From an uncultured bacterium (GTDB lineage Bacteria; Verrucomicrobiota; Kiritimatiellia; CAIKKV01; CAITUY01), in NCBI GenBank assembly GCA_903908715.1, contig CAIVSY010000033.1, positions 1-64,000 on the forward strand: a DNA stretch of 64,000 nt, given 5' to 3'. Shown here piece after piece: positions 33,998-57,158 of the stretch. How positions within the stretch are numbered: position 1 is the first letter of the stretch; each line of letters starts with the position of its first letter. A model generated the notes under the pieces. It was not told where the DNA came from, did no database searches, and worked only from the letters and a program-made list of their open reading frames with translations. Both the position numbers and the translations under genes were made by a program.

Positions 33998-34200
33998 CTT
34001 AGCCGGAACGATTCAGTTACCGGTTGCAATTCCCCTCACCTCAATCCTCTCCCGCAAGGGGAGAGGAAGTGCCAACGACCCCACTTATGCCGGCACCAGA
34101 AGGTGATGCCGCTGGGCCCTCGCAACCATTCAAAATTTCCTCTCCCTGGACGGGAGGGGGGCAGGGTGAGGGTGTTTTGAATGGAATCGTTCCGGCTCAG
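33998..34200. repeat. Non-coding repeat element, copy 1, with terminal inverted repeats
   Basis: The 203-bp element is bounded by CTTAGCCGGAACGATTC (33998-34014) and GAATCGTTCCGGCTCAG (34184-34200), inverted repeats matching at 16 of 17 positions. The interior holds the stem-forming CTCTCCCGCAAGGGGAGAG and a GGGTGAGGGTG block. There is no reading frame for a transposase. Two further copies lie at 53510 and 55649. The last bases supply the TGA stop (34199-34197) of the GH2 gene. It behaves like a MITE or REP-type element and probably folds into hairpins that can end transcription. Confidence 0.85.
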
Positions 34201-53509: not shown

Positions 53510-53786
53510 CTTGGCCGGAACGATTCAGTTACCGGGTGGAATTCCCCTCACCTCAATCCTCTCCCGCAAGGGGAGAGGAAGTGCCAACGACCTCGCTTAT
53601 ACTGTCACCAAAAGGTCATGCCGCTGGGCCCTTGCAACCATTCACAATCGCCTCTCCCTGAGCGGGAGAGTCAAGAAGCCAAACCTCCCTCTCCCTGGAC
53701 GGGAGAGTCAAGAAGCCAAACCTCCCTCTCCCTGGACGGGAGAGGGTCAGGGTGAGGGTGTTTTGAATGGAATCGTTCTGTCTTAG
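53510..53786. repeat. Non-coding repeat element, copy 2, with internal tandem hairpins
   Basis: Ends are CTTGGCCGGAACGATTC (53510-53526) and GAATCGTTCTGTCTTAG (53770-53786). The body matches copies 1 and 3, but a 37-bp unit containing the hairpin CTCTCCC-TGGAC-GGGAGAG is iterated: 53652-53688, 53689-53725, and a partial third from 53726. This makes it about 75 bp longer than the other copies. No reading frame of interest is present. Confidence 0.85.
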
Positions 53787-53858
53787 AACCGGCCGCAACT
53801 GGCTATTGGCGCTGAAGCGCCTCAGCCAAAGCGGTTGCCTTCAGTGGGAGAGTCAAGG

Positions 53859-54375: not shown

Positions 54376-54705
<330 letters not shown>

Positions 54706-54719
54706 TTTCAAACTCCTGA

Positions 54720-55556
54720 TTAAAGCATTACTTTTCCGGGGAAATTCCATCCGAGGTTCGGGAACGCCTGCAGTAACAGCACGTAGACCATGACGCACAG
54801 CAGGACAACTGCGGCGGCGGCCAGAACGGGGAAGATCGCATGGGGGGCTGCCACGTTCTCCTCCGCGACGCGCGCCGCGGCCTGGGCCTCTACCCGTGCT
54901 ACGGCCATACTGCGCGGTACGGGCCTGGCGGGGCTGCCATCGGGCCTGCGAATCTTGATTGTTTTGCGCTGAGTCGGCTGGCCTTCCTCGCTGGGCTGTT
55001 CCTCAGGCAGGTCAATTCGTGACGTGACCGATTTGGCGGCCGGCTCAGCCGGAGCCGGCGTATCCGTTGCCTGTGGTTCAGGCGGCTGGATCGGCGGAAT
55101 CGGTGTGGCCGCAAGCCCGGCAGGCCGCTTGATACGGATGGTCTTCGGAGCGGCAATGGGTGTACCGGAATCGGTCCGTTCCCCGCCTGCTGTTTCGAGT
55201 GGAATTCGCGAGGTTTGGCGCTTGAGTTCCTCGGGGAGGAGGGCGGCCGAAATCGCCTTAGGCGACGGGGTTATTGTGATTGTGGGAACCGGGCCCGCAG
55301 GTGTCAGCCGGATGGTCTTTGCCGCGCCAACGCCAGCAACGGGTGCCCCTGTGGGTGCGCCGGGTTCTGCGCTCACCTGGTCAAGGGGAATCCGAGAGGT
55401 TTTCTTCTTCAGCGTACCGGCTGTCTCCGGGGGGGTGGGCTGCGGCAGATCAACACGGGCTGTACGTTTCTTTGCCGCATCCGCTGGCGGGGCATCCGAA
55501 TCCTTGAAGTTCAATTTAGGGGGAATCGCGCTGTCACCATTTGTGTTGCTTGTCAT
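54720..55556 (-). CDS. Tail-anchored protein with alternating TSRI and KTI(R/K) motifs, function unknown
   Basis: The protein has 278 residues, rich in Pro, Ala and Thr. Two short motifs alternate. Motif A is RTARVDLP (31), KTSRIPLD (52), QTSRIPLE (114) and VTSRIDLP (177). Motif B is KTIRLTPAG (80), [10 protein letters not shown] (138) and [10 protein letters not shown] (198). The order is A-A-B-A-B-A-B, linked by disordered spacers. One membrane helix lies near the C-terminus (residues about 241-263, [20 protein letters not shown]) with a short tail. With no signal peptide, the repeats should face the cytoplasm. The threonine in every motif invites comparison with phosphothreonine docking sites, but this is speculation. 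It is encoded just before trxA. I recognise no named family. Confidence 0.7.
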
Positions 55557-55648: not shown

Positions 55649-55851
55649 CTTAACGGGAACGATTTAGTTGCCGGGTGCAATACCCCTCACCTCGATCCTC
55701 TCCCGCAAGGGGAGAGGAGTGCCGCCGAATCTCTTTTATGTCGTCATCAGAACGTTATACCGCTGGAGCCTTGCACCGATTCAGAATTCTTTCTCGCCTG
55801 ACGGGAGAGGGCTGGGGTGAGGGTGGTTTAAGCTGAATCGTTCCGGCTTAG
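55649..55851. repeat. Non-coding repeat element, copy 3
   Basis: Ends are CTTAACGGGAACGATTT (55649-55665) and GAATCGTTCCGGCTTAG (55835-55851), imperfect inverted repeats. The interior again has CTCTCCCGCAAGGGGAGAG and GGTGAGGGTG. The right end supplies the TAA stop of frr (55850-55848). At 203 bp it has the same length as copy 1. Confidence 0.85.
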
Positions 55852-56411
55852 ACGGCCATCATTTCCTTTTCCTTGGCCGCGAGTACATCATCCACCTTGG
55901 TGATGTAAGTGTCGGTGTCCTTCTGGATCTGGTCCAGAGCCTGATCCCTTTCGTCCTCCGTGATTTTGCTGTCCTTCTGCAGGACCTTGATCCGGTCATT
56001 GGATTCACGGCGAATATTGCGGATGGCGACACGGCTTTCCTCGGCCATTCGCTTGGCCACCTTGGTCAGATCCTTGCGGCGTTCCTCGCTCAACTCCGGG
56101 ATAATGATGCGGATCACACGCCCGTCGTTCATGGGGGTTACGCCAAGATTGGCGGCCAGGATCGCCTTCTCGATGGCCGGCAGGGCGGACGGGTCGTAGG
56201 AATTGACGACAATCATGCGCGCCTCGGGCGTTGCGATACCGGCGATTTCGCGCAGGCGGGTCGGTGTTCCATAGTAGGGGACCATGACATTCTCAACCAG
56301 GCTGGGCGATGCCTTGCCCGTCCGTAATCCGGTGAATTCCTGCAGAAGAAACTGCAGGCACTTTGTCATTTTATCGTCTGCTTCCAGCAGGATGTCGTCA
56401 AGTGTTTCCAT
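55848..56411 (-). CDS. frr: Ribosome recycling factor
   Basis: The protein has 187 residues, the usual length. It splits the post-termination ribosome together with EF-G. Diagnostic segments are FTGLRTGKASPSLVENVMV, YYGTPTRLREIAGI, and the hinge-adjacent IPELSEERRKDLTKVAKRM. It follows pyrH after three bases, the classic pyrH-frr order. The stop codon lies inside the terminal repeat of the adjacent mobile element, so the last residues (KEMMAV) may not be ancestral. Confidence 0.97.
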   Translation of the reverse strand: METLDDILLEADDKMTKCLQFLLQEFTGLRTGKASPSLVENVMVPYYGTPTRLREIAGIATPEARMIVVNSYDPSALPAIEKAILAANLGVTPMNDGRVIRIIIPELSEERRKDLTKVAKRMAEESRVAIRNIRRESNDRIKVLQKDSKITEDERDQALDQIQKDTDTYITKVDDVLAAKEKEMMAV

Positions 56412-56414
56412 GGT

Positions 56415-57158
56415 TCAGGCTCCTTCATCTGATACAACCGTTCCGATCATAGCGCCGGTCACGACCTTTTCAAGGTTTCCTTCCTTGAAGAAGTCGAAAA
56501 CCACGATGGGAATGTGGTTTTCCATGCAGAGCGCAAAAGCGGCTGCATCCATGACCTTGAGCTGCTTGGCCAGTGCTTCCTGGTAGCTGAGCCTGGAGTA
56601 GCGTTTGGCGGATGGATTCTTCACAGGGTCGCTGGTGTACACGCCGTCGACTTTGGTAGCCTTCAGGAGGGCATCGGCATCGATTTCGCTGGCGCGGAGG
56701 GCGGCCGCGGTATCGGTGCTGAAATAGGGATTGCCGGTCCCGCCGCCAAAGATGACTACGCGGCCCTTGTCAAGATGACGGACCGCGCGGCGGCGGATGA
56801 AGGGTTCGGCGACCTGACGCATTTCGATGGCGGTCTGCACGCGGGTGTTGACGCCGGCTTTTTCCAGCGCGTCCTGGAGGGCGAGCGCATTGATCACGGT
56901 TGCGAGCATCCCCATGTAGTCCCCGGTATTGCGATCGATCCCCCGGCTCTCGCCGGCATGACCGCGGAAGATGTTTCCGCCGCCCACGACGATGGCGATC
57001 TCAATGCCCAGCTTGCGCACCTTGCGGATCTGCTGGGCGAAACCGGCGACGACTTCGGGGTCGATGCTGAGGCCCGTTTTCTTGCTCTGGAGGACTTCCC
57101 CGCTTAACTTCAGGAGTATCCGTTTGAACCTGGGTTTGACGGCCGTTTGGCGTGGCAT
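56415..57158 (-). CDS. pyrH: Uridylate kinase (UMP kinase)
   Basis: The protein has 247 residues. It phosphorylates UMP to UDP and belongs to the amino-acid-kinase fold. Landmarks are [47 protein letters not shown], and [20 protein letters not shown], followed by [17 protein letters not shown]. It starts at ATG 57158 and has its own promoter upstream at 57205-57233. Confidence 0.97.

Follow-up and report, generated by a model that had tools for sequence, protein, structure and literature searches.

A predicted membrane-anchored, disordered protein of Kiritimatiellae with repeated threonine motifs: a candidate phosphothreonine scaffold for FHA-domain proteins

ORF X, the open reading frame described here, is located in a stretch of 64,000 nucleotides from an uncultured bacterium of the class Kiritimatiellia (the window) and is single-copy in its genome (Table 1). 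It belongs to the gene order pyrH-frr-X-trxA, which recurs even around very divergent members of the family. The strongest synteny is that with the thioredoxin gene trxA: in 30 of 36 members this gene follows immediately downstream of X, at a median distance of 33 bp. In the present genome 17 bp separate the two genes, a search for terminator-like sites gave none and, judging from the sequence, X and trxA are likely co-transcribed. In the X-less genomes sampled, neither frr nor pyrH nor an X homologue was found adjoining trxA. The adjacency might indicate that X is tied to thioredoxin itself, as its membrane anchor or as a redox client, with the threonine motifs of X serving TrxA. However, the tails of 36 members contain only 3 cysteines in 10,070 aa, and the relatives of X outside the class are not located beside trxA, and we consider such a role very improbable.

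Two direct copies of an intergenic repeat (53510-53787 and 55649-55852) are located on either side of the X-trxA pair, and a further match to it was observed in the window at 34034-34066. The repeat carries CCCCTCACCTC.ATCCTCTCCCGCAAGGGGAGAGGA, its second half GACGGGAGAGGG...GGGTGAGGGTG, and it looks like a dispersed repeat element.

Table 1. Features of ORF X, its neighbours in the window and examples of related proteins outside the class
Feature	Position	Strand	Remarks
ORF X, 278 aa + stop	54720..55556	minus	ATG at 55556, stop 54720-54722; open reading frame and homologues
N-terminal element IPPKLNF, residues 11-17	55506..55526	minus	consensus PP[KR][LI]xL, alignment
Motif A1 KKRTARVDL, Thr32	55446..55472	minus	
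Motif A2 KKKTSRIPL, Thr53	55383..55409	minus	Thr53 invariant in alignment A1
Motif B1 AAKTIRLTP, Thr81	55299..55325	minus	
Motif A3 KRQTSRIPL, Thr115	55197..55223	minus	Thr115 invariant in alignment A1
Motif B2 APKTIRIKR(P), Thr139	55125..55151	minus	Thr139 invariant in alignment A1
Motif A4 KSVTSRIDL, Thr178	55008..55034	minus	
Motif B3 QRKTIKIRR(PDG), Thr199	54945..54971	minus	most conserved motif of the family
Juxtamembrane element RSMAVARVE, residues 215-223	54888..54914	minus	partly conserved
Predicted transmembrane helix, residues 241-264	54765..54836	minus	alignment and AlphaFold2
C-terminal tail, residues 265-278	54723..54764	minus	predicted extracytoplasmic; PGK recurrent in the family
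trxA (thioredoxin)	54376..54702	minus	downstream of X, conserved partner
frr (ribosome recycling factor)	55848..56411	minus	upstream neighbour, conserved synteny
pyrH (UMP kinase)	56415..57158	minus	upstream neighbour, conserved synteny
Out-of-class multi-B-motif proteins, examples	L223:2134-3012; L220:2722-4185		

The first approximately 236 residues of X form a tail rich in Pro (16%), Ala (16%) and Thr (10%), from which Cys, Trp and Tyr are absent and whose net charge (residues 1-236) is +7. AlphaFold2, run with a 22-sequence alignment, assigned residues 1-230 pLDDT values mostly between 45 and 60 and no strands, a weakly predicted helix to residues 219-233, and one confident helix to residues 241-264, followed by an end of 14 residues. 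This single membrane helix, at most about 15 residues from the C terminus and with no second one elsewhere in the protein, is kept in the family; within it Tyr258 and Leu260 are nearly invariant and Gln263 is invariant (alignment A1), and Y-x-L-x-A-Q is a constant part of the X family. Based on these predictions X would be a C-terminally anchored single-pass membrane protein, inserted so that the tail faces the cytoplasm and the C-terminal end lies outside it. At the other end of the protein, both prolines of the PP[KR] element are invariant among the 22 aligned members. No Pfam-A or NCBIfam family matched X at E values up to 1, and our literature search yielded no paper on the X family, nor any in which Kiritimatiellae and FHA domains were brought together.

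Seven copies of a threonine-centred motif are distributed along the tail. They fall into two classes, motif A with the consensus K-x-x-T-x-R-I-x-L and motif B with the consensus P-K-T-I-R-I-K-R-P. The pattern T-x-[RK]-[IVL] occurs seven times in the predicted cytoplasmic part, against a mean of 0.51 and a maximum of 5 in shuffled sequences, and none of 100,000 shuffles reached seven; over 50 members of the family the motifs exceed the expectation from composition 10-fold (320 versus 32). In the 1.44 Mb of DNA examined, several motifs per protein were found in X-family proteins only, and the other matches were isolated and mostly chance-like. The preliminary description of this DNA had reported the seven motifs in the order A-A-B-A-B-A-B within a disordered region that is followed by one C-terminal helix, and the positions, the shuffles and AlphaFold2 agree with this. 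Its emphasis on regular alternation did not hold to the same extent: the alternation is present in X, but it is not improbable in itself, since 7 of the 35 possible orders of four A and three B motifs give at least six runs, and it is not a family-wide property. In the family of X itself the order is A-A-B-A-B-A-B or near to it, and other members have AAAAAAAAAB or ABBBBBAAABAB. What is constant in the X family is the last A-B pair, closing in an 11-residue sequence, together with the N-terminal PP[KR][LI]xL element. This invariant element, the conservation of the helix and the short C-terminal tail had been overlooked in the earlier list of features, of which the motifs and the helix were borne out.

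Relatives of X were found by direct search in 37 of 58 related genomes, and with a profile built from 37 diverse members X was detected in 149 of the 192 class genomes that are at least 85% complete. A single-sequence scan of genome contigs with X gave no match; the alignment-based scan recovered 43 loci. Among 22 members, the motifs have a column identity of 54%, compared with 21% for the linkers and 41% for the membrane helix. In six pairs of close relatives, dN/dS was 0.00-0.07 in the motifs versus 0.17-0.68 in the linkers and was lowest in the motifs in all six, these values being simple Nei-Gojobori counts from a small number of pairs whose pS is fairly high and three of which have sequences in common. 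Loss of the motifs in orthologues that keep the linkers had been named in advance as refuting the proposed docking role of the motifs; the opposite was seen, as the motifs are kept and the linkers drift. It could be argued that the tail is a generic low-complexity spacer and that the functional part consists of the membrane helix and the tail outside, given that the helix is itself conserved, with its near-invariant Tyr, Leu and Gln. The motifs nevertheless exceed the helix in conservation and have the lowest dN/dS in every close pair, and we find a mere spacer barely credible. We are highly confident in describing X as a disordered protein with multiple motifs and a membrane anchor, in which selection acts specifically on the motifs. 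The conservation of the motifs, the purifying selection specific to them, the disorder and the single C-terminal helix best support a membrane-bound platform for multivalent docking, a reading that retains the core of the preliminary proposal without the weight that it had placed on regular alternation.

Outside the class, in other classes of the phylum, proteins of the families f46, f53, f58 and f82 (L218-L229) gave weak HMM matches (E 5.7e-10 to 0.05). They resemble X in having five to eight repeated KxT[IL][KR]L motifs, a Pro/Ala-rich tail and a C-terminal membrane helix; they differ from it in that A motifs are absent and neither trxA nor frr adjoins. Common ancestry of X and these proteins is likely. 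At one of these loci, L223, a Hanks-type kinase gene is located 1.5 kb from the B-motif protein.

The central residue of the motifs is almost always Thr. When windows were scored by their flanks alone, with position 0 left out (the within-class motif seeds having been chosen with Thr there), position 0 was Thr in 160 of 161 A windows and in 102 of 103 B windows (262 of 264 in total), and Ser once. The +1 position of motif A swaps freely among Ser, Ala and Thr, and the linkers contain slightly more Ser than Thr (778 versus 708, or 52% Ser among Ser and Thr); therefore, the preference for Thr is not an effect of composition. A cleaner test is provided by the out-of-class relatives, since these played no part in motif building: in front of [ILV][KRQ][LIV] they have Thr 56 times, Ala three times, Pro once and Ser never, and their tails contain 271 Ser and 251 Thr. 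The residue at +3 is Ile, Val or Leu in 158 of 159 A windows and 100 of 102 B windows. FHA domains bind phosphothreonine and reject phosphoserine by means of a pocket for the methyl group, in which they differ from BRCT and WW domains (PMC3146460). The third residue after the Thr contributes to FHA selectivity (PMC5549992), and a pTXXI ligand has been recorded for an FHA domain, the +3 rule not being universal among FHA domains (PMC4037201). A need for both the hydroxyl group of Thr (no Val or Ile) and its methyl group (no Ser) would match the requirement of FHA domains, and strict Thr with an aliphatic +3 residue fits putative phosphothreonine sites that are read by them.

The same residues bear on two other possible functions of the motifs. 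Docking might be independent of phosphorylation, with the alternating polar/aliphatic peptides (T-I-R-I-K-R-P) occupying a groove of a cytoplasmic partner as additional beta strands and X acting as a multivalent membrane tether for that partner. The motifs do resemble short beta strands between prolines, the B motifs are basic-aliphatic, and the PP[KR][LI]xL element looks like a B motif minus its Thr; a strand site, however, would accept Val, Ile or Ser at the position of the Thr, where they are almost absent, and AlphaFold2, which describes the unbound state only, puts no strand in the motifs. We regard this kind of docking as rather unlikely. It is less probable still that X is a kinase substrate without a reader, in which multi-site phosphorylation would alter the charge of the Lys/Arg-rich tail and thereby switch its attachment to lipid or nucleic acid. 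The tail is net basic, basic residues stand beside each Thr and kinases are abundant, but for a charge switch Ser would do as well as Thr and the aliphatic +3 residue would be superfluous.

If the motifs are read by FHA domains, readers and kinases should be encoded in the same genome. Ten FHA domain matches, in about nine proteins, and ten strong matches to Hanks-type kinases (Pkinase) were found in the genome of X. The FHA set comprises P0002, two ATPases in which FHA is joined to T2SSE, an FHA-sigma54 activator, and others. P0002 (L068, G000:C78) is a protein of 169 aa with an FHA domain and a C-terminal membrane helix; homologues were detected at E values up to 1e-6 in 147 of the 192 class genomes, the weakest of which may be other FHA proteins. 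Our searches found no description of an FHA plus membrane-helix protein of this type. A TTRIEV sequence in the linker of P0002 was considered as the same motif in cis and dropped, as it is not conserved in the orthologues; P0002 itself stays a candidate reader. Its orthologues (L182-L211) have a conserved SPFG.R juxtamembrane motif, and no close match is present in the families f22 and f29. The two ATPases (L074 and L076; G000:C18 and C16) are of the T2SSE secretion type and have the FHA domain at the N terminus.

Across the class, X is absent from all 16 genomes without FHA domains (Fisher P 3e-12) and from all 11 without kinases (2e-8) at the thresholds used, but these P values overstate the case and the co-occurrence is not independent evidence, since the FHA-less and kinase-less genomes all belong to the families f22 and f29 (31 genomes, all X-less), in which the absence of X is perhaps a single loss. 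Of the 161 genomes outside these two families, 149 have X, and all of them carry FHA domains and kinases; in the other 12, FHA is present and X undetected, for which incomplete assemblies or divergence may be responsible. The genomes of f22 (G120, G055 and G083 are examples from f22 and f29) have nearly no Hanks-type kinases and lack most FHA domains; those of f29 have kept kinases, have few FHA domains and, like f22, lack X. FHA genes were located near X in 1 of 106 neighbourhoods and kinase genes in 3 of 106, and FHA genes do not figure among its synteny partners. In our judgement, the earlier speculation about FHA domains has gained support from the preference of Thr over Ser, from the aliphatic +3 residue and from the presence of FHA domains and Hanks-type kinases in every sampled X-bearing genome of the class.

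We propose that X is a cytoplasmic scaffold that would be anchored in the inner membrane by its C-terminal helix. Hanks-type Ser/Thr kinases would phosphorylate the single conserved Thr in each of the approximately seven motifs of the disordered tail, and the resulting phosphothreonines would recruit several cytoplasmic or membrane FHA-domain proteins at once. Candidate readers are the small, class-wide FHA protein with a membrane helix, the two FHA-T2SSE ATPases, the FHA-sigma54 activator and the other FHA proteins. The topology in vivo, the phosphorylation and the FHA binding, as well as the particular FHA protein and kinase involved, are inferred, and we assign a probability of about 0.5 to the proposal that FHA domains recognise the motifs as phosphothreonine sites.

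To our knowledge, few physiological ligands of FHA domains have been identified in bacteria. The genomes of the group to which X belongs contain many FHA proteins and Hanks-type kinases, and X offers a defined target, with about seven near-identical candidate phosphothreonine sites that would be displayed at the membrane, to be set against the nine or so FHA proteins and about ten kinases of a single genome. Moreover, the family that it represents is widespread and matched no model in Pfam or NCBIfam.

Known systems resemble the proposed scaffold in part. The SQ/TQ clusters of eukaryotic DNA-damage proteins (e.g. Rad53-Dun1, Mdt1) are read by FHA domains (PMC4037201 and references therein). 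They share with X a disordered region with many phosphothreonine sites for FHA reading, in X candidate sites, and a ligand of the pTXXI type is known (PMC4037201); in contrast, the core in X is T-x-[RK]-[IVL], an S/TQ core is absent, and X is bacterial, predicted to be membrane-anchored and its phosphosites are putative. In Agrobacterium type VI secretion, the inner-membrane protein TssL is phosphorylated on an N-terminal cytoplasmic Thr and is then bound by the FHA protein Fha (PMC3953482). The likeness lies in the arrangement: TssL has one site (Thr14) where X has about seven repeated motifs, and X is encoded in the order pyrH-frr-X-trxA, not in a secretion locus, and lacks the linkage to kinase and FHA genes seen in T6SS loci. 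In Mycobacterium tuberculosis, a pTXXV site of Rv2623 at T237 is recognised by the membrane FHA domain FHA I of Rv1747 (PMC5549992). Rv2623 likewise presents a phosphothreonine with a permitted +3 residue, as the putative sites of X would, but on a folded soluble universal stress protein instead of a disordered array. X belongs neither to the SQ/TQ clusters, because it has no TQ core, nor with TssL, in which the site is single. Tentatively, and with somewhat less confidence than we place in FHA reading as such, X might be the founding member of a group of bacterial membrane-anchored multi-phosphothreonine scaffolds that gather several FHA proteins at the inner membrane, as a counterpart to the multisite FHA scaffolds of eukaryotes, and in which the A and B classes of motif may address two different readers.
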